Shown here piece after piece: positions 5,147 to 22,083 of a DNA stretch of 64,000 nucleotides. Below the pieces are notes generated by a model. It was given only the letters and a program-made list of their open reading frames with translations. It had not been told where the DNA came from and did no database searches. Source of the DNA: Micromonospora sp. NBC_00421 (lineage in GTDB: Bacteria > Actinomycetota > Actinomycetes > Mycobacteriales > Micromonosporaceae); contig NZ_CP107929.1 in the NCBI RefSeq assembly GCF_036017915.1, positions 7,167,839 through 7,231,838 on the forward strand, given 5' to 3'. The translations under genes were made by a program, and so were the position numbers. Position 1 is the stretch's first letter, and each line of letters opens with the position of its first letter.

Positions 5147-6133
5147 GTGGGGCGGCGCACAGCGACGGCGAACGCGGTCGGCCTGGTGGCCGGGTACGCG
5201 CTGGACAGCCTGCTCGGCGATCCTCGGCGCTGGCATCCGGTGGCCGGCTTCGGGCGGGCCGCCGGCACCCTGGAACGTCGGGTCTACCGGGCCGATCGCC
5301 GGGCGGGAACGTTCTTCACCGCCATCGCGGTGGGTGCGCCGGTGCTGCTCGGCGTGGCCGTCGACCGGGCCACCCGGCGACACCCGGTGGCCCGGGTCCT
5401 GGTCGTTGCCGCCGGCACCTGGGCGGTACTCGGTGGCCGGACCCTGCGCCACGAGGCGAAGGTGATGGGTTCCGCCCTGCGCGCCGGTGACCTGCCGGCG
5501 GCGCGACACCGGCTCGGCCACCTCTGCGGCCGGGACCCGTCCCGGCTCGACGAGGCCGAGTTGGCCCGCGCCACAGTCGAGTCGGTCGCCGAGAACACCT
5601 CCGACGCCGTGGTCGCCCCGTTGCTCTGGGGTGCCCTCGCCGGTCTGCCCGGCCTGCTCGGCTACCGGGCGGCGAACACCCTGGACGCCATGGTCGGGCA
5701 CCGCTCACCCCGTTACGCCCGGTTCGGCACCCCGGCCGCCCGGCTCGACGACCTGCTCAACCTGGTACCGGCCCGGCTGACCGGGCTGCTCACGATCGCC
5801 GCCGCGCCCACCGTGCACGGCGACCGGGAGCGGGCCTGGCAGGTCTGGCGACGGGACCGCCACGACCATCCCAGCCCCAACGCCGGGCAGTGCGAGGCGG
5901 CCATGGCCGGGGCGCTGGGCGTCCGGCTCGGCGGCCGGAACGTCTACTTCGGGCGGTCCGAGGTGCGTCCGTTCCTCGGCGACGGCCCGCGCCCCGAAGC
6001 CCGGCACCTGAAGCGGGCCGCCCGGCTCTCCGGAAAGGTCGGCCTGGCCGCCCTCGCTCTGGCCGCGGTATGGCCGCTGACCGGTGGCCGGCTGGTCGCC
6101 GCCACCGGCCGCGCGCTGCTGGGCCGCCGGTGA
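5147..6133 (+). CDS. cobD: Adenosylcobinamide-phosphate synthase CobD/CbiB
   Basis: GTG start preceded by GGAGGTGG. The 328-residue integral membrane protein matches CobD/CbiB, which joins adenosylcobyric acid to aminopropanol phosphate in the late cobalamin pathway. Family hallmarks visible are the N-terminal [38 protein letters not shown], and [22 protein letters not shown]. Several hydrophobic membrane segments are present. Its stop overlaps the cobQ start (GTGA at 6130-6133), so the two are translationally coupled. No cobalamin riboswitch is apparent in the 190 bases upstream. Confidence 0.97.
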
Positions 6134-7671
6134 GCGGTGGGCTGCTCGTCGCGGGCACCACGTCCGACGCGGGCAAGAGCGTGCTCACCGCCGGCATCTG
6201 CCGCTGGCTGCACCGGCGGGGAGTCGCCGTCGCACCGTTCAAGGCGCAGAACATGTCCAACAACTCCGCCGTGGTGGTCGGCCCGGACGGGCGGGGCGGC
6301 GAAATCGGGCGGGCCCAGGCGATGCAGGCCGCCGCCTGCGGGCTCGCCCCCGACCTGCGGTTCAACCCGGTACTGCTCAAGCCGGGCAGCGACCTGGCCA
6401 GTCAGGTGGTGTTGCTCGGCGAGGCCGTCGACACGGTCACCGCCGGCAACTTCCGTACCCTGCGTCCGAGGCTCGCCGAGACGGCGTACGCGGCCCTAGC
6501 CGAGCTGCGCACGGCGTACGACGTGGTGATCTGCGAGGGGGCCGGCAGCCCCGCCGAGATCAACCTGCGGGCCGGGGACTACGTCAACATGGGGCTGGCC
6601 CGGCACGCCGGTCTGCCCGCCATCGTGGTCGGGGACATCGACCGGGGTGGCGTGTTCGCCTCGATGTTCGGCACGGTGGCCCTGCTCGACCCGGCCGACC
6701 AGGCGCTGATCGCCGGCTTCGTGATCAACAAGTTCCGGGGCGACCTCGGTCTGCTCCGCCCCGGGCTGGACATGCTGCACCGGGTGACCGGTCGACCCAC
6801 CTACGGGGTGCTGCCCTGGCAGCTCGACCTCTGGCTCGACGCCGAGGACTCGCTCGCCTACGGGCGGGTGCTCGGCCGCCCCGCCGCCCCGTACGGCAGC
6901 GAATGGCTCGACGTCGCAGTGGTCCGGCTGCCCCGGATCAGCAACGCCACCGACGTGGAGGCCCTGGCCACCGAGCCGGGTGTGCGGGTCCGGCTCACCG
7001 TCGAGCCCGCCGAGCTGGCCGCCGCCGACCTGGTCGTCCTGCCCGGCTCCAAGTCCACGGTCGCCGACCTGACCTGGTTGCGGGAGACCGGGCTCGCCGA
7101 GGCCGTCACCGCACACGCCGCCGCCGGTCGGCCGCTGCTCGGCATCTGCGGCGGCTTCCAGATGCTCGCCACCGCCATCCATGACCCGGTGGAGAGCCGG
7201 CGGGGCAGCGTCCCCGGCCTGGGCCTGTTGCCCGTCGAGATCACCTTCGACCCGGTCAAGACCGTCCGCCCGGCCGTCGGCACCGCCGCCGACGTGCCGG
7301 TGCGCGGCTACGAGATCCACCACGGGCACGTCTCCACCGCCGATCCGGAGCTGCCCCCGCTGCTGCACCACGCCGACGGTCGCCCCGAAGGCGCCCGGCT
7401 CGGCGCGGTGCACGGCACCCACTGGCACGGCGCGTTCGAGTCCGACGGGTTCCGCCGCCGGTTCCTCACCGAGGTGGCCCGGTCGGCCGGGCGGCACGGC
7501 TTCACCGTCGCGCCGGACACCAGCTTCGCCGCCGCCCGGGAACGCTCCCTCGACCTGCTCGGCGACCTGGTCGAGGAGCACCTGGACACCGCCGCGCTGT
7601 GGCGGCTCATCGAGGCCGGCGCCCCCGCCGACCTGCCGTTCATCCCACCCGGCGCACCACCTGCGGGCTGA
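6130..7671 (+). CDS. cobQ: Adenosylcobyric acid synthase CobQ
   Basis: The start is the GTG at 6130 that overlaps the cobD stop. The 513-residue glutamine-dependent enzyme amidates four side chains of adenosylcobyrinic acid a,c-diamide. The N-terminal ATPase domain has the loop GTTSDAGKS, followed by [22 protein letters not shown] and [11 protein letters not shown]. The C-terminal class I amidotransferase domain has its nucleophile Cys340 in [11 protein letters not shown] and the late His in [11 protein letters not shown]. All catalytic motifs are intact, unlike the CobB homologue at 14887. The early a,c-diamide step and cobO are not in this window. Confidence 0.97.
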
Positions 7672-12340: not shown

Positions 12341-13132
12341 TCAGACCGTCGACAGCGACCGGGCGTAGTTGACCTGATTGTTGATCTGCTGCACCTGGCC
12401 CGGGTCGACGACCGGGATGCGGGCCACGTACTGATGGGCGCCACTGGTCACCGTCACCTGCACGGTGCCGTGGTGTCGCGTCTCCTTGATCAGCAGGAAG
12501 AGCAGGCTGAAGATGGTCAGACAGAAGAAACCGAGGATGGCGCAGACGATCGCCCAACTGGCGATCTTCTCCTCCCGCTGCCAGTGGTCGGTCACGTACC
12601 AGCCGGCACCGGCCAGGGGCATCACCCCGGCCGGGGTACGGATCACCGGCGGGCTGACCATGATCTCACCGATCTGCACCGCCGGCGGCTGGTGCCCTAC
12701 TGCCGCCCCCGGCACCGCTCCCGTCGGCGCGAACAGCGGCGGGTAGGGCCCGGCCTGCGGCACGGCATAGGGACCGGTCCCGGGTGGCGCGGAGAACTGC
12801 GCCGGTGGGGCGGAGAACTGTGCGGGCGGTGCGAATGGGGCGGGTGGCGCGGAGAACTGCGCGGATGGCGGTGCGAATGGTGCTGGCGGCGCGGAGAACT
12901 GTGCGGGCGGTGCCGGGTACGGCCCGGCCTCCGGCGGGGTGGCGGGCTCGAACGGCGCTGCCGGGGAACCTGCCGTCGGGAACTGGGCGGTGGAGGGTGC
13001 GGGCTGCGTCGATGGCGGGTGGAACGTCGCCGTTGTCGAGGCCACGTCCGGCGACGGTGCCCACGGGTCGTAGGCGGGGCTCGCCTGCGTGGGCGGATCG
13101 GACGGGTACGACGGGGCAGGATCGGAGGTCAT
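12341..13132 (-). CDS. Proline-rich membrane protein of unknown function
   Basis: A 263-residue protein starting at the ATG (13132) after GAGGTG; the adjacent GTG is possible. The first 145 residues are a Pro/Ala-rich cytoplasmic region with near-perfect repeats of PAQFSAPPAPFAPP type. One clear membrane helix follows (IASWAIVCAILGFFCLTIFS and onward) and then a short basic segment and a possible extracellular C-terminal domain. I know no function for this family. The repetitive DNA in the first half makes the gene prone to length variation. It is convergent with ligB; the palindrome GACCCCGGGGTC at 12331-12342 sits at its stop codon. Confidence 0.85.
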   Translation of the reverse strand: MTSDPAPSYPSDPPTQASPAYDPWAPSPDVASTTATFHPPSTQPAPSTAQFPTAGSPAAPFEPATPPEAGPYPAPPAQFSAPPAPFAPPSAQFSAPPAPFAPPAQFSAPPAQFSAPPGTGPYAVPQAGPYPPLFAPTGAVPGAAVGHQPPAVQIGEIMVSPPVIRTPAGVMPLAGAGWYVTDHWQREEKIASWAIVCAILGFFCLTIFSLLFLLIKETRHHGTVQVTVTSGAHQYVARIPVVDPGQVQQINNQVNYARSLSTV

Positions 13133-13200
13133 CACGACACCTCACGCGCGTTGAACACGTTGCGGACCATACCGCCTCCCGCGTCGTCGTGCGTTCCGAC

Positions 13201-13892: not shown

Positions 13893-14708
13893 TCAGGCAG
13901 GGGTGACGGGCTCGGCGGCCCGGTCGACGGGGAGCTTCGGGGCGTCCAGCCCGGCGGCGTGGCGGGCCTCCCGACGGGCCACCCAGCCGTAGCCGAAGAG
14001 CGTCATCGCGGCGAACAGCCACCACTGGACGACGTAACCGAAGTTCTGCCAGTTGTTGGTGTGACCGATCGGCACCGCCCGGAACGCCGGGTCGTTCGCC
14101 GGGGTCTGCTCGTCGAGCAGCAGGTAGGCCCCGTGCAGCGGGTAGGGCAGTTCCCGGGCCAGCTTGTCCACGGTCACCCGACGGGTCTCCAACCGGCCGT
14201 CGCGCCGGTCCACGCCGTTGCCGCCGGTCTCGGTGGGGTGCACCCGGCCGACGACTGTCACCGCACCGGTCGGCAGCGCGGGCACCTGGGGCATGGCCAG
14301 CGCACCACCGGGCGCTGGCGGCACCCAACCCCGGTCGACAAGCACCGCCGTGCCGTCGTCGAGCACCAGCGGGGCGAGCACCTCGAAGCCGACCTTGCTC
14401 TCCACGGTCCGACCCCGGACCAGGACCACGTTCGCGGCGTCGTACCGACCGGTGGCGGTGACCCGGCTCCACTCGGCCTGCTCGGCGGGGGGCGGGCCGA
14501 CGCTGCCCGCGCCACCGGTCGGGGCGGGCAGCGTGGCCCGCAGCGGCGCGGGGGTGCCTGCGGTGCCGGCGTCGATGCGCTCGTTGACCGCGGTGCGTTC
14601 CCGGTAGCGGTCCAGCTGCCAGTTGCCGAGCAGCACCATGACGGCGGCGGCGACCAGGGTCAACGCGAGGATGCCCAGCCAGCGTGGGGTCAGCAGGAAC
14701 CGGTACAC
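13893..14708 (-). CDS. SURF1 family protein (cytochrome c oxidase assembly)
   Basis: A 271-residue membrane protein of the SURF1 family, which helps insert haem a into aa3-type cytochrome oxidase. The first helix is near the N-terminus (LGILALTLVAAAVMVLLGNW), followed by the characteristic QLDRYRER. The extracytoplasmic domain has VTATGRYDAANVVLVRGR and VLVDRGWVPP. The second helix is near residue 230 (FGYVVQWWLFAAMTLFGYGW), with the family's NNWQNFGYVVQWW. The C-terminal tail is short and cytoplasmic. It is divergent from the CobB homologue. The downstream repeat block may act as its transcription end. Confidence 0.95.
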   Translation of the reverse strand: MYRFLLTPRWLGILALTLVAAAVMVLLGNWQLDRYRERTAVNERIDAGTAGTPAPLRATLPAPTGGAGSVGPPPAEQAEWSRVTATGRYDAANVVLVRGRTVESKVGFEVLAPLVLDDGTAVLVDRGWVPPAPGGALAMPQVPALPTGAVTVVGRVHPTETGGNGVDRRDGRLETRRVTVDKLARELPYPLHGAYLLLDEQTPANDPAFRAVPIGHTNNWQNFGYVVQWWLFAAMTLFGYGWVARREARHAAGLDAPKLPVDRAAEPVTPA

Positions 14709-14886: not shown

Positions 14887-16281
14887 ATGATGACCGCCGT
14901 GCCGCGCCTCGTGTTCAGCGCGCCGTCCTCCGGTCACGGCACCAACGCGCTCTCCGTCGGCCTGCTCGCGGCCCTCGCCGACCGGGGGCTCGACGTCGCC
15001 GGTTTCAAGGTCGGCCCGGACCACGTCGACGCCGCGTACCTCGGCCTGGCCGCCGGTCGCCCCGGCCGCACCCTCGACCCCCGGCTGGTCGGCGCCGACC
15101 GGCTCGGGCCACTCTTCGCGTACGGTGCCGAGGGCGCCGCGTTGGCCCTGGTCCAGGGCACCATGGGCCTGTACGACTCGGTCGCCGGCCGGCCCGACGC
15201 GGAGTCCACCGCCGCCGTCGCGACCGCGCTGCGCAGCCCCGTCGTGCTGGTGGTGGACGTGGCGGCGATGGGGCAGTCGGTGGCCGCCCTGGTGCACGGC
15301 TTCCGCTCGTACGACGAGCAGCTCTGGTTGGGTGGGGTGATCCTGACCCAGGTCGCCTCCGGCCGGCACGAGTCCATGCTCCGGGAGGCGCTCGACGACG
15401 TCGGGATGCCGGTCTACGGCGCGCTGCGTCGCCACGAGCTTCCCCCGGTGCTCCCCTCGCGCCGGCACGGTGTGGTGCCGGTCCTCGCCCGCGACGCCGA
15501 GGCGACCCGGGCGGTCCGCCGGCTCGGGGAGGCGGTTGCCGGCACGGTCGACCTGGAGCGCCTGCTCGCGCTGGCCCGTTCCGCCCCGGCGCTCTCCGTC
15601 CCACCGTGGTCGCCCGTCCCCGGGGCTCCGGCCACCACGGCTCCGGCCGGGGACGCGCCGGTGGTGGCACTCGCCGGGGGACCGGGTGGCAGCTACGGCC
15701 ACCCGGAGGTCGCCGAGCTGCTCCGGGCCGCCGGGGCGCAGGTGGTCACCGTCGACCCGCTACGCGACGAGGCGCTGCCCGCCGGCACCCGCGCGCTTGT
15801 CGTCGGCGGCGCGTTGCCCGAGTCGTACGCGCGGGATCTCTCGGCGAACCGGCGGCTCTGCATCGCGGTGGCCGAGCTGGCCCGCACCGGGCGTCCGGTG
15901 GTCGCCGAGGGCACCGGCCTGCTGTGGCTGGCCCGCGAGCTGGACGGGTTGCCGATGTGCGGGGTGCTGGACGCGATCGGCGGCAGTCGGGACGGCCTGG
16001 TGGTGGGCTACCGGGAGGCGGTCGCCCAGTCCGACAGCGTGGTCGCCGGCACCGGGGCGACCGTGGTCGGCTACAAGCAGCACGGTGCCGTGCTCACTCC
16101 CAGGTCGGGGCCGCGGGCCGCCTGGAGTTGGGAGGGTGGCACGCCCGAGGGCTTCGTCTGGCGGGGCGTGCACGCCTCCCAGCTCGGCCTGCACTGGGCG
16201 GCGTACCCCGAGATCGCGACCCGGTTGGTGACGGCGGCGGCGCTGCCCTCGCCGGTCGAGGGCGTCGCCGCCCCGGCCTGA
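14887..16281 (+). CDS. CobB/CbiA-family protein with degenerate ATP and glutaminase sites
   Basis: Start ATG 14887 (ATGATG after GAGGAG). The 464-residue protein is collinear with cobyrinic acid a,c-diamide synthase: FKVGPDHVDAAYLGLAAGRP, MGLYDS, VVLVVDVAAMGQS, LPSRRHGVVPV, GGALPESYARDL and a C-terminal HASQLGLHWAAYP. Key residues are changed. The Walker A loop expected as SGxGKTT reads SSGHGTNAL (Thr19-Asn20 instead of Lys-Thr), EGxMGLYDG reads QGTMGLYDS, and the glutaminase loop expected as AECGGL reads AEGTGLLWL with Gly342 in place of the nucleophilic Cys. Ordinary catalysis looks impossible. It may be a pseudoenzyme or an altered paralogue, with a genuine cobB elsewhere. Confidence 0.85.
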   Translation: MMTAVPRLVFSAPSSGHGTNALSVGLLAALADRGLDVAGFKVGPDHVDAAYLGLAAGRPGRTLDPRLVGADRLGPLFAYGAEGAALALVQGTMGLYDSVAGRPDAESTAAVATALRSPVVLVVDVAAMGQSVAALVHGFRSYDEQLWLGGVILTQVASGRHESMLREALDDVGMPVYGALRRHELPPVLPSRRHGVVPVLARDAEATRAVRRLGEAVAGTVDLERLLALARSAPALSVPPWSPVPGAPATTAPAGDAPVVALAGGPGGSYGHPEVAELLRAAGAQVVTVDPLRDEALPAGTRALVVGGALPESYARDLSANRRLCIAVAELARTGRPVVAEGTGLLWLARELDGLPMCGVLDAIGGSRDGLVVGYREAVAQSDSVVAGTGATVVGYKQHGAVLTPRSGPRAAWSWEGGTPEGFVWRGVHASQLGLHWAAYPEIATRLVTAAALPSPVEGVAAPA

Positions 16282-16332: not shown

Positions 16333-18465
16333 TCAGCCGACGATGGCGTCCGACGGTGGGGTGAACTGGCGGGTCGGGGTGCCCTTGAGGCCGTCCCGCA
16401 GGGTCTGGGCGACCGCGTTGACCGGGACCTGGGACTGCCCGTCGCCGACGGCGTTGAACGGGTTGTCCGGGTCGGCGATGAAGCTCGCCGCCGCCAGTTC
16501 CGGGGTGTAGCCGACGAACCAGGCTGACCTGGTGCTGTCCGTGGTACCGGTCTTGCCGGCCACCGGGCGGCCCACCGTGCGGCGGACGCTGTCCGCCGTC
16601 GACCAGCCGCCGCAGGTGCCCTTGGCCGGGGTGTCGCCGGTGGGGCAGCGGGCCGCGTCGGTGGCGGCGCGGGCCGCGTCGGCGTTGACCACCTGGCGGC
16701 AGCGGGGCTTCGCGACCTCCCGTTCGATGCCCCCGGCGGTCTTGTAGGTGGCCGGGGTGCCGTCCCGGTTGGTGATCGAGTTGACGGGCATCGCCTCGCA
16801 GTACCGGCCGTCGGCGGCGATCGCGGCGTACGCGTTGGCCATCTCCAGCGGGGTGGCGTCGGAGACACCCAGGGTGAACGCGCCCCACTTCTTCGCCTTG
16901 GCGGGCGACGCCTGCTCCTTGTCGACGTCGGTACGCCAGCGCAGCCCCAACTGCTCGGCGAGGTGCACCCCCCGGTCCGCGCCGATCTTCTCCTCCAACT
17001 GGACGAAGTAGGTGTTCACCGACTTGCCGAATCCGGACCACATGGTCTGCCGGCCGGTCATCGCCCCGCTGGCGTTGGACGGCGCCCAGCCGTCGTAGAC
17101 GGCCGACTTGTACCGGTACGGCGAGTCGAACGCCGTGGACAGTGGCATCCCGGCGTCCAGGGCGGCCAGCATCGGGAACATCTTGAACGTCGAGCCGGCC
17201 TGGTAGCCGGGGAGGGTGCCGCCGCCGAGCAGCGGGGCCACCGTGTTCGGATAGTTTGCTTTCGTCTTGGGGTCGGCCTCGGGGTTGGAGCTGGGTCCGT
17301 TCTCGCTGACGTCCAGCGAGTACGTCCGGTTCACCGCCATCGCCTTGATCCGCCCGGTGCCCGGTTCGGCGACCACGATCCCGTTGGCGAAGGGGCTGCC
17401 GACCCCGTCCTTCGCGCCGACGTTCTTCTCGGCGGCGGCCTGGACCTTGGGGTCGAGACTCAGCACGATCCGGTAGCCGCCCCGGCGCAGCTTGTCCATC
17501 CGTTCCAGCCGGTTCTCCCCGAACGCGGGCTGCGCGCTCCACCAGTTCTTCACGTAGTCGCAGGCGAAGCCCCAGGTGTTGTACCTACTGGGTATCGAGG
17601 CGCAGTCGTTGGGCGGGGTGGTGGGCCGGGTGCGGATCGGTTCGCTCTTGGCGACCGCGGCGGCGTCCGGGGACAGGTAGCCGAGTTGGGCCATCTTGTC
17701 GAGGACGTAGTTGCGCCGGCCGGTGGCCTCCTTCTGGTCCGAGCTGAGCGGGTCGTACTCGGAGGGCGACTTGACCAGGCCGGCGAGGGTGGCCGCCTCG
17801 ACCGGGGTGAGGGTGGCCGGGGTCTTGGAGAAGAAGATCTGCGCCGCCGCGTAGATGCCGTACGCCCGGTGGCCGAAATACGCCGAGTTGAGGTAGCGCT
17901 CCAGGATCTGCTCCTTGGTCAGCTCCTTCTCGATGTCCAGCGCCATCCGCATCTCCTTGACCTTGCGCAGGCTGGTCTGCTGGGTTGCCTCCTGCACCTC
18001 CTGTGGCGTCTGCGAACTGTCCCGCAGCGCCATCCGGACGTACTGCATGGTCAGCGTGGAGGCGCCCTGGGAGACGCCGCTGGAACGGGCGTTGGCCACG
18101 AAGGCGCGGGCGACGCCCTTGGGGTCGACCCCCCGGTGCTGGTAGAAGCGGTTGTCCTCGGCGGCGACGATGGCCTGCTGGATGTTCGGCGACATGTCCG
18201 ACAACTTGGTGTACTGCCGGTACTCCTCGTAGAACATCGTCAGGATCGTCGTGCCGTCCGGGGCGTAGAGGTAGGACGTCTCGGCGGGCAGGGCGGTGCG
18301 CAGGATGTTCGTCTTGTGCTCCACGGCGTGCGCGGTGGCCTTGGCACCCAGGCCTGTCACGGCGGCCAGCGGGTACGCCACGGCGGCGAGCACGATGCCG
18401 GCGATCAGCCCGGCGCGGAGGAGTGGAACGGAACGACCTGCGGCGGCGAAGGATCGATTGCTCAC
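16333..18465 (-). CDS. Class A penicillin-binding protein (transglycosylase/transpeptidase)
   Basis: A 710-residue bifunctional murein synthase. A cytoplasmic N-terminus and one membrane helix (about residues 15-38) lead into a GT51 domain with AAEDNRFYQHRG (Glu103), GASTLTMQYVRM and RYLNSAYFGHRAYGI. The transpeptidase domain has the nucleophile Ser425 in AGSTFKMF, the SxN motif in GKSVNTYF and the KTGTT motif near residue 645. It polymerises and cross-links peptidoglycan outside the membrane. The GTG start follows a relatively AT-rich region shared with the divergent cobC. It splits the cobalamin genes and has no obvious link to them. Confidence 0.96.
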   Translation of the reverse strand: MSNRSFAAAGRSVPLLRAGLIAGIVLAAVAYPLAAVTGLGAKATAHAVEHKTNILRTALPAETSYLYAPDGTTILTMFYEEYRQYTKLSDMSPNIQQAIVAAEDNRFYQHRGVDPKGVARAFVANARSSGVSQGASTLTMQYVRMALRDSSQTPQEVQEATQQTSLRKVKEMRMALDIEKELTKEQILERYLNSAYFGHRAYGIYAAAQIFFSKTPATLTPVEAATLAGLVKSPSEYDPLSSDQKEATGRRNYVLDKMAQLGYLSPDAAAVAKSEPIRTRPTTPPNDCASIPSRYNTWGFACDYVKNWWSAQPAFGENRLERMDKLRRGGYRIVLSLDPKVQAAAEKNVGAKDGVGSPFANGIVVAEPGTGRIKAMAVNRTYSLDVSENGPSSNPEADPKTKANYPNTVAPLLGGGTLPGYQAGSTFKMFPMLAALDAGMPLSTAFDSPYRYKSAVYDGWAPSNASGAMTGRQTMWSGFGKSVNTYFVQLEEKIGADRGVHLAEQLGLRWRTDVDKEQASPAKAKKWGAFTLGVSDATPLEMANAYAAIAADGRYCEAMPVNSITNRDGTPATYKTAGGIEREVAKPRCRQVVNADAARAATDAARCPTGDTPAKGTCGGWSTADSVRRTVGRPVAGKTGTTDSTRSAWFVGYTPELAAASFIADPDNPFNAVGDGQSQVPVNAVAQTLRDGLKGTPTRQFTPPSDAIVG

Positions 18466-18599
18466 CTGGTCAAGTTATGACATTTCCGATTCATCCATGA
18501 GAAGAATTCATGAACGCTCCGGAGTTGGTCGAGTCCCGTGATGTGGCCCACGCCCGGATCGGCTGTCCCAGGCGTCGGCTTCCCGGCAGGATCGCGGTC

Positions 18600-19685
18600 A
18601 TGCAAGGGCAACCGACAGGCACCGCGCCGGCCACCGGCACCGAGCCGGACCTCGCCCACCACGGCGACGCCGAGGCCGCCCCCGGCCTGGTCGACCTGGC
18701 CGTGAACGTCCGCCGGGACCCGATGCCGGACTGGCTGGCCGACCCGATCACGGCCGCCCTCGCCGACCTGGCCGGCTACCCCGACCCCCGCCCGGCCCGC
18801 GCCGCCGTCGCCGCCCGGCACCGCCGTCCACCGGCGGAGGTGCTGCTCACCGCCGGTGCCGCCGAGGGCTTCGTGCTGCTCGCCCGCGCCCTGACCGGGG
18901 TACGCCGGCCGGTGGTGGTGCACCCGCAGTTCACCGAGCCGGAGGCTGCTCTGCGGGCCGCAGGCCACCAGGTCGAGCGGGTGCTGCTCGACGCCGCCGA
19001 CGGTTTCCGGCTCGACCCGGCCCGGGTGCCGGTCGACGCCGACCTGGTCATGATCGGCAACCCGACCAACCCGACCTCCGTGCTGCACCCCGCCGCCGAC
19101 CTGGCCGGGCTGGCCCGCCCCGGCCGGGTGCTCGTCATCGACGAGGCGTTCTCCGACACCACCGGCGTACCCGGCGTCGACGGTGAGCCGGAGTCGCTCG
19201 CCGATCGTCGGGACCTGCCCGGCCTGGTGGTGGTGCGCAGCCTCACCAAGACCTGGGGGCTGGCGGGCCTGCGGATCGGTTACCTGCTGGGCGAGGCCGC
19301 CCTGCTGGAACGGCTGGCCGCCGCCCAGCCGCTCTGGGCCGTCTCCACCCCGGCGCTGGCCGCCGCCACCGCAGTCGCGTCGCCGACCGCCGTCGCCGTC
19401 GAGCGCGCCGTCGCCGCCCGGCTCGCCACCGACCGCGAGCACCTGGTGACCCGCCTGTCGGCTCTGCCCGGGGTACGCGTCGCGGGCCGCCCGGCCAGCG
19501 CCTTCGTCCTGATCCACCGGCCCGGGGCCGACCGGCTACGCCAGTTGCTGCGCGAGCGCGGCTGGGCCGTCCGACGCGGCGACACCTTCCCCGGGCTGGG
19601 ACCGGACTGGCTGCGGATCGCCGTCCGCGACCCGGCGACCACCGACGCGTTCATCGAGATACTGGCGGAGATCCTGGAGGCATGA
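18600..19685 (+). CDS. cobC: CobC-type threonine-phosphate decarboxylase (class I/II aminotransferase fold)
   Basis: I choose ATG 18600; an upstream ATG at 18510 would add 30 residues without family similarity. The 361-residue PLP protein has LTAGAAEGFVLLARAL, MIGNPTNPTSVLHP, VLVIDEAFSD and the PLP lysine in VRSLTKTWGLAGLRIGYLLG. CobC/CbiD-type enzymes of this fold produce aminopropanol phosphate from threonine phosphate for the corrinoid nucleotide loop, the co-substrate of CobD. Its stop overlaps the cobT start (ATGATG at 19682), so cobC-cobT-cobA form one coupled operon. The context makes the cobalamin role likely over histidinol-phosphate aminotransferase. Confidence 0.92.
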   Translation: MQGQPTGTAPATGTEPDLAHHGDAEAAPGLVDLAVNVRRDPMPDWLADPITAALADLAGYPDPRPARAAVAARHRRPPAEVLLTAGAAEGFVLLARALTGVRRPVVVHPQFTEPEAALRAAGHQVERVLLDAADGFRLDPARVPVDADLVMIGNPTNPTSVLHPAADLAGLARPGRVLVIDEAFSDTTGVPGVDGEPESLADRRDLPGLVVVRSLTKTWGLAGLRIGYLLGEAALLERLAAAQPLWAVSTPALAAATAVASPTAVAVERAVAARLATDREHLVTRLSALPGVRVAGRPASAFVLIHRPGADRLRQLLRERGWAVRRGDTFPGLGPDWLRIAVRDPATTDAFIEILAEILEA

Positions 19686-20797
19686 TGCTGGAGACGACGA
19701 TCGCGGCGATCGGTCCGCTCGACGGGTCGGCGATGACCGCCGCCCGGGACCTCCAGGCCCGGCTCACCAAGCCGGCCGGCTCACTCGGTGCCCTGGAGGA
19801 GCTGTCCGTACGCCTGGCCGGCCTGGCCGGAGCCTGCCCGCCCCCGCTGCCCGAACCGGCGGCGGTGGCGATCTTCGCCGGTGACCACGGCGTGCACGCC
19901 CAGCGGGTCACCCCGTGGCCGCAGGAGGTCACCGCCCAGATGATCGGAAACTTCCTGGCCGGCGGGGCGGTGGTCAACGCGTTCGCCCGGCAGGCCGGCG
20001 CCTCGGTCACCGTGGTCGACGTCGGGGTCGCCACCCCGCTGTCATTCCCACCCGAGGCGACCGCCGGCACCGCCGGCCCGGCGGGCGGCCCGACCGGTGC
20101 CGTCCTCGCGCCGCCGCGCCTGGTCGACGCGAACGTGCGGCGGGGCACCCGGGACATGACGGTCACCGCCGCACTCACCCGGGACGAGGCGCGGGCGGCG
20201 ATCGAGGTCGGCATCCGGGTCGCCGACGAGTTGGTCGACGCCGGGGCGGGTGTGCTGCTCACCGGGGACATGGGGATCGCCAACACCACGCCGTCCGCCG
20301 CACTGATCGCCGCTTTCACCGGGGTGGACCCGGGCGAGGCGACCGGCCGGGGGACCGGGGTGGACGACGAGACGTACCGGCGCAAGGTCGGCGTGGTGCG
20401 GGCGGCGCTGGAGCGGCACCGGCCCGACCCGGCCGATCCGCTGGGGGTGCTGGCGGCCGTCGGTGGCCTGGAGCACGCGGCGCTTGCCGGCCTGATCCTC
20501 GGTGCGGCGGCCCGCCGGGTTCCGGTGCTGCTCGACGGGGTGATCGCGGTCAGCGCCGCGCTGGTCGCCGCCGCCCTCGCCCCCGACGCGGTCGGCGCGA
20601 TGATCGCCGGGCACCGCTCCGCCGAGCCGGGTGCCAGCGTGGCGCTGCGCCACCTCGGCCTCGACCCGCTTGTCGACCTGGGCCTGCGGCTCGGCGAGGG
20701 CACCGGCGCGCTGCTGGCGTTGCCCGTGGTCACCGGCGCGGTCCGGGTGCTGCACGAGGTGGCCACCTTCGATGCGGCGGGGGTCTCCGAGAAGTGA
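19682..20797 (+). CDS. cobT: Nicotinate-nucleotide-dimethylbenzimidazole phosphoribosyltransferase CobT
   Basis: 371 residues; overlaps cobC by 4 bases and cobA by 4 bases (GTGA). It makes alpha-ribazole phosphate for the lower ligand of cobalamin. Family motifs visible are LTKPAGSLGALEEL, IFAGDHGVHAQRVTPWPQEV, MIGNFLAGGAVVNAFARQ, LLTGDMGIANTTPSAA, ATGRGTGVDD, LLDGVIAVSAALVAA and the C-terminal GLRLGEGTGALLALP, which carries the catalytic Glu. The insert of about 15 Ala/Gly/Pro-rich residues after VATPL is a lineage feature. The protein is complete. Confidence 0.98.
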   Translation: MMLETTIAAIGPLDGSAMTAARDLQARLTKPAGSLGALEELSVRLAGLAGACPPPLPEPAAVAIFAGDHGVHAQRVTPWPQEVTAQMIGNFLAGGAVVNAFARQAGASVTVVDVGVATPLSFPPEATAGTAGPAGGPTGAVLAPPRLVDANVRRGTRDMTVTAALTRDEARAAIEVGIRVADELVDAGAGVLLTGDMGIANTTPSAALIAAFTGVDPGEATGRGTGVDDETYRRKVGVVRAALERHRPDPADPLGVLAAVGGLEHAALAGLILGAAARRVPVLLDGVIAVSAALVAAALAPDAVGAMIAGHRSAEPGASVALRHLGLDPLVDLGLRLGEGTGALLALPVVTGAVRVLHEVATFDAAGVSEK

Positions 20798-22083
20798 GCG
20801 CCAACCCGTACCCCCTCGGCCTGCGGCTCGCCGGGCGGCGGGTGGTCGTGGTGGGCGGCGGCGCCGTGGCCAGCCGCCGGGTGCCCGCCCTGCTGGACGC
20901 CGGCGCCGACGTGCTGCTGGTCGCCCCCGAGGTGACCCCGGCGCTGCGCGCGCACGTCGATGCCGGGCGGCTGCACTGGCGGCCCCGCCGGTTCGCCCCC
21001 GACGACCTGGACGGCGCATGGCTGGTGCAGGTCGCGGTGGACGACCCGCACGCCGCCGCCTCGGTCAGCGCGGTCGCCGCCGAACGGCGGATCTTCTGCG
21101 TGCGGGCCGACGACCGGGCGGCGGCCACCGCCTGGACCCCGGCGGTCACCCGGCACGGGCCGGTGACGGTGGCCGTGTTGGGCGGGGGCGACCCGCACCG
21201 GGCGATGAGTGTCCGGGACGCCGTCCGGGAACTGCTCACCGCGCGGACCGGGCTGCTCGCCGATCCGGGGGAGACCGTGGTGGTCGGGGTCGCCGCGGGC
21301 GCGCAGGGTCCGGTACCGGCCGGGCTGGGAAGCGGGGAGGCCCCTCCCCCCGGCCCGATCGGACGGGTGTCGCTTGTCGGCGCGGGACCGGGCGACCCGG
21401 AGCTGATCACCGTGAAGGGGTGGCGGCTGCTCACCGAGGCGGACGTGGTGGTCGCCGACCGGCTGGTCCCCGGGCTGCTCCTGGACGAGTTGCGCCCCGA
21501 CGTCGAGCTGGTCGACGCCGCCAAGATCCCCTACGGGCCGTCCCGCGCGCAGGAGGAGATCAACCGGATCCTGGTCGACCGGGCGCTCGCCGGGAAGGTC
21601 GTGGTCCGGCTCAAGGGCGGTGACCCGTACGTCTTCGGCCGTGGCGGGGAGGAGCTGCTGGCCTGCGCGGCGGCCGGCGTACCGGTGACCGTGGTGCCGG
21701 GGGTGACCAGTGCGATCGCCGTGCCGGCGGCGGCTGGTGTCCCGGTCACCCACCGGTCGGTGGCGCACGAGTTCACAGTGGTCTCCGGGCACGTCGCCCC
21801 GGACTCGCCGGTCTCCCTGGTGCGCTGGGAGGCCCTCGCCGGCCTGCGCGGCACCCTCGTGGTGCTGATGGGGCTGAAGAACCTGGCCGCCATCACCGCC
21901 GTCCTGACCCACCACGGCCGGGACGCGGCGACCCCGGTCGCGGTGATCCAGGAGGGCACCACGGGGAGCCAGCGGAGCCTCCGCTCGACCCTCGGCGCGG
22001 TGGCGGCGGACGTCGTCGAGGCGGGTCTGCGTCCACCGGCCATCGTGGTGATCGGCGACGTGGTCGACGCCCTCACCACCTGA
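20794..22083 (+). CDS. cobA: Fused precorrin-2 dehydrogenase / uroporphyrinogen-III C-methyltransferase
   Basis: GTG start at 20794 overlapping the cobT stop. The 429-residue protein has the CysG arrangement. Residues 1-150 are a Rossmann dehydrogenase (RRVVVVGGGAVASRRV and WLVQVAVDDPHAA). After a linker comes the SAM-dependent methyltransferase, residues 185-429, with VSLVGAGPGDPELITVKG, VVADRLVP, VVRLKGGDPYVFGRGGEE and VPGVTSAIAVPAAAGVPVTH. It converts uroporphyrinogen III to precorrin-2 and sirohydrochlorin, feeding both sirohaem and cobalamin. It is the last gene of the cobC-cobT-cobA operon and is followed by a foldback repeat. Confidence 0.96.
   Translation: MSANPYPLGLRLAGRRVVVVGGGAVASRRVPALLDAGADVLLVAPEVTPALRAHVDAGRLHWRPRRFAPDDLDGAWLVQVAVDDPHAAASVSAVAAERRIFCVRADDRAAATAWTPAVTRHGPVTVAVLGGGDPHRAMSVRDAVRELLTARTGLLADPGETVVVGVAAGAQGPVPAGLGSGEAPPPGPIGRVSLVGAGPGDPELITVKGWRLLTEADVVVADRLVPGLLLDELRPDVELVDAAKIPYGPSRAQEEINRILVDRALAGKVVVRLKGGDPYVFGRGGEELLACAAAGVPVTVVPGVTSAIAVPAAAGVPVTHRSVAHEFTVVSGHVAPDSPVSLVRWEALAGLRGTLVVLMGLKNLAAITAVLTHHGRDAATPVAVIQEGTTGSQRSLRSTLGAVAADVVEAGLRPPAIVVIGDVVDALTT

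Follow-up and report, generated by a model that had tools for sequence, protein, structure and literature searches.

A glutaminase-dead CobB paralogue retained beside surf1 in Micromonosporaceae independently of cobamide synthesis

The window, i.e., the whole stretch of 64,000 nucleotides of Micromonospora sp. NBC_00421 analysed in this work, represents the end of a single contig of 7.23 Mb. The genes to which we refer in the following are:

5147..6133, + strand, cobD (PF03186, 330 bits)
6130..7671, + strand, cobQ, intact (TIGR00313 over cut-off; PF07685; GICGG and G-x-E-x-H motifs)
13893..14708, - strand, surf1 (SURF1 family; PF02104, 129.6 bits), the divergent neighbour conserved with the dead gene
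14887..16281, + strand, the glutaminase-dead CobB paralogue that is the subject of this work (open frame, 464 aa; CobB family of NCBIfam and Pfam; AlphaFold2 model)
16333..18465, - strand, class A penicillin-binding protein (PBP), the usual neighbour (PF00912, PF00905)
18510..19685, + strand, CobC-like aminotransferase (PF00155)
19682..20797, + strand, cobT (PF02277, 421 bits)
20797..22083, + strand, cysG/cobA-type siroheme synthase (PF00590, PF13241)

Positions 12341-13135 (-) encode a protein rich in Pro and Ala, with a C-terminal part of membrane-like character and no Pfam match, which is often found near surf1 in relatives. No cobalamin riboswitch was detected at the gathering score in the 64,000-nt window or in eight other loci.

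The frame at 14887-16281(+), whose translation may start at the second ATG (14890), has no internal stop and codes for a product of 464 amino acids. This protein scored 322.6 bits with NF002204, the NCBIfam equivalog of CobB (cut-off 254), and 237.2 bits with TIGR00379 cobB, below the cut-off of 261.4; the Pfam domains CbiA (41.9 bits) and GATase_3 (28.9 bits) were each above cut-off. The two-domain CbiA + GATase_3 architecture of CobB was recovered by Pfam, AlphaFold2 and Foldseek, and the protein shares 41-59% of its residues with the intact CobBs that were read from the family. The full-length match to CobB and the frame free of stops, both proposed in an earlier sequence-only reading of this DNA, were confirmed, and the product is, on these matches, a genuine relative of CobB. 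The AlphaFold2 model, built with 54 dead sequences, exhibits two well-folded domains (pLDDT 90.2, pTM 0.91). When this model was searched with Foldseek, CTP synthase and MurT/GatD glutaminase chains ranked first, and no solved CobB structure was retrieved by sequence search or present in the listed top 50 of the fold matches.

The residues of the active sites were compared in all the 51 full-length orthologues found in a sample of 61 Micromonospora genomes (the genus sample), in 57 full-length members from other genera, chosen by locus or score, and in alignment rows bearing or lacking the glutaminase Cys, near-copies included. The changed residues of the window protein are:

14941..14946, + strand, Walker A Lys-Thr changed to Thr19-Asn20 (position 19: Lys 26, Thr 24 and Arg 1 of the 51 genus orthologues, Lys in 57/57 from other genera; position 20: Asn 35, Gly 10, Ser 4 and Thr 2 in the genus, Thr 54 and Ser 3 in other genera)
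15154..15156, + strand, Glu90 of EGxMGLYDG changed to Gln (Gln in 51/51 genus orthologues; in other genera Glu in 50/57, Ala in 4, Gly in 2, Lys in 1)
15910..15912, + strand, glutaminase nucleophile Cys changed to Gly342 (Gly in 51/51 genus orthologues; Cys in 0/57 members from other genera, with Gly, Ser or Asn instead)
16075..16077, + strand, Glu of GHEFH changed to Lys397 (Glu in 55/55 Cys-bearing rows, Lys in 285/293 Cys-less rows)
16186..16188, + strand, glutaminase His of the YLH motif changed to Gly434 (His in 55/55 Cys-bearing rows and 1/293 Cys-less rows)

Thr19-Asn20, Gln90, Gly342 and Ser98, the last at the Gly of the EGxMGLYDG motif of CobB, had all been read correctly from the sequence, whereas the changes of His434 to Gly and Glu397 to Lys affect the same glutaminase site and were not in that first list. 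In the alignment, the GatD encoded by the same strain has the His of its YSH motif at the column of Gly434, and the Glu found in G-x-E-x-H, replaced by Lys397 in the window protein, is common to CobB, to the CobQ of the window and to this GatD. CobB/CobQ-type glutaminases are described as using a Cys-His dyad (PMC5871853); both members of this dyad are absent from the window protein (Gly342, Gly434), which also lacks Lys-Thr in Walker A and Glu in EGxMGLYDG, residues that the remaining genera of the clade mostly keep. The substrate loop GPDYIDPxYH of CobB was not found either, since Pro49 is changed to Ala and His52 to Leu clade-wide (the latter in 289/293 Cys-less rows, near-copies included), while Asp45 and Asp48 are retained; among 88 non-redundant rows, almost all conserve Asp45, Asp48 and Asp97. 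Mutagenesis of CbiA reportedly covered the Asp pair and Glu90.

The search for a second CobB with intact motifs, suggested by the sequence-only reading, was successful. An intact CobB (L003) is located in the same genome at C1:2573254-2574606, with GHGKTT, EGVMGLYDG and AECAG motifs. CobN lies at a distance of about 3 kb and CbiC at one of about 6 kb, and the frame adjoining this CobB resembles, by eye, a precorrin methyltransferase. Given this vicinity to CobN and CbiC, the strain probably makes cobalamin via this other CobB, and the possibility that the window gene is the only CobB of a cobalamin producer is refuted.

The full-length matches of the genus (51/61 genomes) share 76-95% identity with the window protein, its own copy aside, and one of them (G017) carries a stop marked by the tool. 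Only pieces of the gene were found in 6/61 genomes, where the frame shifts near the linker (G038, G039, G049), residues 2-81 alone are retained (G047) or the copy sits at a contig end (G013, G053), and none was found in 4/61; the gene is dispensable, being absent from some genomes of the genus and from several genera. The three changes singled out in the first reading are thus unequally conserved, Gly342 and Gln90 being invariant in the genus and Thr19-Asn20 not, with Lys19 still present in about half of the orthologues. With a full-length orthologue in 51/61 genomes and the Cys missing in 51/51, a lone decayed copy or a sequencing error was discarded. The CobBs of the other, intact kind in the genus are 35, and the Cys is present in the 32/32 that were checked; two of them (L125 in G021 and L126 in G049) are divided between two frames close to the interdomain linker, and both genomes are near-complete and harbor CobN.

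Glutaminase-dead relatives were found across Micromonosporaceae at one site beside surf1. Since rows were sorted as dead or intact by the Cys itself, the statement that no dead row has a Cys would be circular, and the independent marks are His434, Glu397 and His52; similarly, the row set named “micro” was chosen by Gln90, so that its 73/73 Gln is circular. A non-circular check was obtained by picking members by score and place, without the Cys, and then reading them: the Cys is absent from every locus so picked and read, including all the 59 orthologues classed by score alone, and it is present in all 28 further CobBs of the genus and, in the family, in G121 and in 11/12 lower hits. Intact CobBs keep Cys, His and Glu in 20/20 cases from other families and in 20/20 from the same family (L098-L117). 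The protein lists used comprised 120 of 7152 and 120 of 7798 proteins, and the locus set the best 80 of 484.

A tree of 157 rows separates all the Cys-less rows from the others by a single branch (support 99), and the same split was recovered (SH-aLRT 96) in a tree of 63 rows deprived of the nine diagnostic columns, from which the broken copy L071 was excluded. The position of the clade among intact CobBs differs between FastTree (rooted on one row) and IQ-TREE. This split, together with the residue counts by genus, points to one early loss of the glutaminase and to later losses of the ATP site. Therefore, on the evidence of tree and alignment, the clade is defined by the lost Cys-His dyad, this loss was a single event preceding the diversification of most of Micromonosporaceae, and the ATP-site losses were later, in Micromonospora and partly in the genus g34. 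Some early branches of the dead clade were also observed (P0199, P0206, P0211), in which the Cys is already Ala, Thr or Ser; P0206, labelled Cryptosporangiaceae, still has the glutaminase His and carries Met at position 397, as if the loss had been caught stepwise. The loss of the dyad alone is not unique to the clade: a different CobB-like copy (L321) of G166, a genome without CbiC, has independently lost Cys and His, keeps Glu397, Pro49 and His52, and has one stop in the aligned stretch.

As for the ATP site, Glu90 is Ala or Gly in all six read members of g34 (G093, G118, G137, G151, G163 and G171), Lys in the copy of G067, and retained with Lys-Thr in the copy of G063, which has lost two P-loop glycines. 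The g34 loci concerned (L050, L276, L278 and L281-L283) are separate from the Micromonospora loss, and the idea that ATP-site loss is confined to Micromonospora is countered by them. The original description of a CobB homologue that has lost its ATP-binding and glutaminase residues is consequently valid clade-wide for the glutaminase and wrong for most of the clade as far as ATP binding is concerned, since Lys19, Thr20 and Glu90 are mostly retained outside Micromonospora.

The interdomain linker does not exceed 31 aa in Cys-bearing rows but reaches 126 aa in rows that lack the Cys, as would be expected if ammonia need not pass between the domains. Some dead CobBs of Actinoplanes, Dactylosporangium, Asanoa and Plantactinospora (P0162, P0204, L137, L138, L142, L151) also bear Pro/Ala/Gly-rich C-terminal tails of up to several hundred residues.

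The distribution of the dead gene was then compared with that of cobamide biosynthesis (counts are given as both genes/first only/second only/neither). In the genus, the intact CobB tracks CobN (35/0/3/23, p=7e-14), whereas the full dead gene shows no association with CobN (30/21/8/2, p=0.29) and no co-occurrence with intact CobB (27/24/8/2, p=0.17). The distribution of the dead gene among 121 genomes of the family does not depend on CbiC (49/25/25/22, p=0.18), and the association of the gene with CobQ is weak (67/7/37/10, p=0.11); at least nine split family copies, a number that is possibly undercounted, enter the co-occurrence count, and four of them (L071-L074) were read in pieces or partly. 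The full dead gene is present in 21/23 Micromonospora genomes without CobN, CbiC and intact CobB. In four genomes of the Stackebrandtia group (g4; G063, G124, G141 and G155), 98-99% complete, the dead gene with Lys-Thr-Glu is present and CbiC, CobQ, CobS and CobD were searched for and none was found; in G066 (Actinorhabdospora) and G085 (Phytomonospora) it is present and CbiC, CobS and CobD were not found. A fifth g4 genome, G104, has no dead gene. Thus, the dead gene is independent of cobamide synthesis, and the hallmark of CobB represented by the co-occurrence with corrin ring synthesis does not apply to it. Two side observations concern CobQ, which is over cut-off in G066, G085 and G104 although CobS and CobD are absent, and which is kept by 22/23 ring-less Micromonospora genomes, with no obvious source of the a,c-diamide substrate. 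Proteins of this clade bear the database label cobyrinate a,c-diamide synthase; since the four defining features tested (the dyad, the ATP-site residues, the substrate loop and the co-occurrence with ring synthesis) were all found to be lacking, the window protein should not be filed under this name.

These data bear on the hypothesis that the protein binds corrinoids in the late or the salvage steps of cobamide synthesis, where it would pass cobyrinate-type precursors to CobQ or to an adenosyltransferase. The locus commonly includes cobD, cobQ, cobC or cobT in most of the genera read, the substrate-loop residues Asp45 and Asp48 are retained, and the ring-less Micromonospora genomes nearly all keep both the gene and a CobQ over cut-off. 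However, the gene persists in the four Stackebrandtia-group genomes, in G066 and in G085 where the enzymes mentioned above were not found, the association with CobQ is weak, and the two changes at Pro49 and His52 lie right beside the Asp pair. We therefore consider this hypothesis unlikely; of the corrinoid-binding pseudoenzyme imagined at first, the pseudoenzyme stands and the corrinoid role is weakened by the Stackebrandtia-group genomes.

The strength of selection was estimated by pairwise NG86 dN/dS, as simple counts, keeping genus pairs with dS of 0.05-0.6 (426/435) and pairs of named loci with dS of 0.05-0.8 (for the dead gene, 300/325 in Actinoplanes-type genera and 120/120 in Micromonospora). 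In the genus, the median of the dead gene (0.25) lies between those of the PBP part (0.18) and of surf1 (0.38). In the Actinoplanes-type genera, where the ATP site is intact, the dead gene has a median of 0.15, the lowest of five genes (surf1 0.27, PBP 0.28, cobT 0.26, cobC 0.22); in the Micromonospora named loci the corresponding medians are 0.26 for the dead gene, 0.35 for surf1, 0.22 for PBP, 0.20 for cobT and 0.29 for cobC. Accordingly, the ratio of dN between the dead gene and its neighbours is 0.51-0.83 in Actinoplanes-type genera versus 0.86-1.5 in Micromonospora (with PBP, 0.58 versus 1.5; with cobT, 0.83 versus 1.35). Nine loci of other genera made up a third, mixed set, in which the dead gene has 0.35 and surf1 0.55, the values being higher for all genes and the ratios 0.58-1.07. 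Constraint is therefore real in all sets and, relative to the neighbours, weaker where the ATP site is lost, being roughly halved in Micromonospora. This check, called for at the outset, bears out the impression that selection keeps the gene: what is kept is a conserved paralogue with a dead glutaminase under purifying selection. Apart from the 6/61 genomes with pieces only, neither the broken frame nor the unconstrained evolution of a pseudogene was observed, whereas the features of a pseudoenzyme (fold kept, catalytic residues lost, purifying selection) are found clade-wide for the glutaminase and, for the ATP site, in Micromonospora and partly in g34.

It might be argued that the Micromonospora gene is merely decaying, that is, that its function ended with the ATP site and that the remainder is a slow pseudogene. 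The relaxed constraint with respect to Actinoplanes, the genomes with pieces of the gene or none, and the residues lost in other lineages too (g34, G166) are in agreement with this idea. Against it stand the full-length match in 51/61 genomes, the medians of 0.25 and 0.26 in two samples, between those of PBP and surf1, and the fixation of Gln90 in 51/51 orthologues, with no drift. On balance, we regard decay, too, as unlikely.

The place of the gene beside surf1 is kept nearly everywhere. In the family, surf1 adjoins the dead gene in 25/26 loci (22 divergent and 3 on the same strand), the exception being a 3.5 kb contig, and in 76/77 named loci, a set that overlaps the previous one; in L050 a gap of 1.7 kb separates the two genes. 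Surf1 was not found beside intact CobB in any of 40 loci (flanks of about 1-4 kb). In all four g4 genomes, surf1 comes first and the dead gene follows on the same strand, with 1-260 nt between the matches. The place is nevertheless older than this link: in 16 surf1 loci of genomes without the dead gene surf1 is kept, in 14 of them beside the same PBP, which indicates that surf1 does not need the dead gene and that the locus is probably ancestral, with the dead gene probably lost cleanly several times. The PBP is mostly followed by cobC, cobT and cysG, and intact cobB adjoins cobC in several other families (relatives of the CobC-like gene lie next to it in L080, L081, L085, L086, L094, L096 and L116), which suggests that the dead gene occupies an old cobB site. 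The location in a cobalamin region, invoked at first in support of the gene's use, is hence correct as to the place (cobD, cobQ, cobC and cobT are nearby) and loses its value as a proof of use, the place looking ancestral.

A GNAT acetyltransferase gene (PF13302) lies downstream on the same strand in 56/103 dead loci (the sets overlap; e.g., L139:7485-8072), and a 43-46% relative follows intact CobB in L088, L089 and L090. It was set aside as a partner gene, since it persists near surf1 in 12/16 loci without the dead CobB and is absent from the window between 16281 and 16333.

The same neighbourhood data allow one to evaluate whether the protein handles tetrapyrroles in partnership with SURF1, when haem A is delivered or cytochrome oxidase assembled. 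Tetrapyrroles are the substrates of CobB-type proteins, the adjacency to surf1 is nearly constant in dead loci and never seen in intact ones, and in the Stackebrandtia group the two genes follow each other on one strand; moreover, Surf1 is described as handling haem A, and further assembly proteins are expected (PMC9145763). Yet the adjacency may simply be inherited, since surf1 stays in place without the dead gene, and such a partnership appears very unlikely to us. Lastly, a regulatory or structural subunit of intact CobB, the activation by a dead paralogue being a common theme and the strain itself carrying both genes, is so strongly disfavoured by the co-occurrence counts (24/51 carriers without intact CobB, and the gene kept in 21/23 genus genomes devoid of CobB, CobN and CbiC, whereas CobB tracks CobN) that we reject this proposal of the first reading.

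The interpretation that we prefer, and to which we give a little less than an even chance, is that the protein, devoid of glutaminase, has been repurposed and in most genera uses ATP, probably as a ligase, while in Micromonospora it is probably a non-catalytic binding protein. An old paralogue of CobB lost the Cys-His dyad early in the family, the predicted fold and, in most genera, the ATP-site residues being kept. In these genera ATP would still be used, probably for activating a carboxylate that reacts with free ammonia or another amine rather than with glutamine; alternatively, the protein might work as an ATP switch and not as an ATP-dependent ligase. The ligand would be other than cobyrinate, as suggested by the presence of the gene without detectable cobamide synthesis and by the altered substrate loop, an argument drawn from residue conservation. 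In Micromonospora, including the strain of the window, the ATP-site residues were then lost, and the protein, most likely no longer catalytic, would be kept for binding a ligand or a partner. The phylogenetic part of this interpretation is far firmer than the mechanism. Indeed, the Glu90 losses in g34 and G067 and the loss of P-loop glycines in G063 speak against it: as the ATP site has also decayed outside Micromonospora, it is less certain that the remaining members of the clade are catalytic, and the ATP motifs that they retain may have a role in folding or in switching.

The comparison with known systems helps to define the repurposed protein. With respect to CobB/CbiA, the cobyrinic (hydrogenobyrinic) acid a,c-diamide synthase whose two-domain architecture it shares, the window clade lacks the dyad, has Lys in place of Glu397 and an altered loop (Pro49, His52) and is unlinked to ring synthesis, the Micromonospora members being additionally devoid of the ATP-site residues. 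CfbB, the Ni-sirohydrochlorin a,c-diamide synthase, is likewise a relative of CobB and acts on another tetrapyrrole substrate in the F430 pathway; however, the five different dead proteins scanned (226-338 bits; the window protein 225.6 bits) fall far below the cut-off of 560 of NF033195 (CfbB). Carbamoyl phosphate synthetase I is an amidotransferase without the glutaminase Cys that uses free ammonia via an intact ATP-dependent synthetase; its ATP fold is unrelated, the use of ammonia is only putative in the dead CobBs, and Micromonospora has lost the ATP-site residues too. The glutaminase domains of GatD/CobQ type have the same GATase fold (Foldseek) and a dyad of the type described in PMC5871853, whereas the window protein lacks both dyad residues and the Glu of G-x-E-x-H. 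Finally, the dead activator paralogues (prozyme, the deoxyhypusine synthase paralogue) are likewise conserved inactive paralogues of active metabolic enzymes; unlike them, the dead CobB occurs in many genomes without the active enzyme, so that it does not appear to be an activator of CobB.

One might go further and speculate that the clade represents a new enzyme family concealed by the CobB name, i.e., an ATP-dependent ligase without glutaminase and with a changed substrate loop, joining an amine to a carboxylate of a ligand outside cobamide synthesis and reduced to a binding protein in Micromonospora. The fixed place beside surf1 and near cysG makes a ligand of the haem- or siroheme-type tetrapyrrole class possible. 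We regard this extension of the preferred interpretation as doubtful.

No description of this clade was found in the open-access literature searched, including that on Micromonospora cobalamin biosynthesis and diamide synthase. What appears to be new here, as judged from sequence comparison, is a CobB fold without glutaminase retained through much of a bacterial family, one of soil bacteria. Its persistence in members with no sign of B12 synthesis makes it probable that the dead gene has a job other than B12 synthesis, and one practical consequence is that a B12 enzyme is attributed to genomes that lack the corrin pathway. The clade shows a staged loss of active sites, the glutaminase and then the ATP site, accompanied by a measurable shift in constraint, and it offers a clean system for studying the role of the CobB fold after pathway loss, the Stackebrandtia group keeping the gene with no cobamide synthesis detected.
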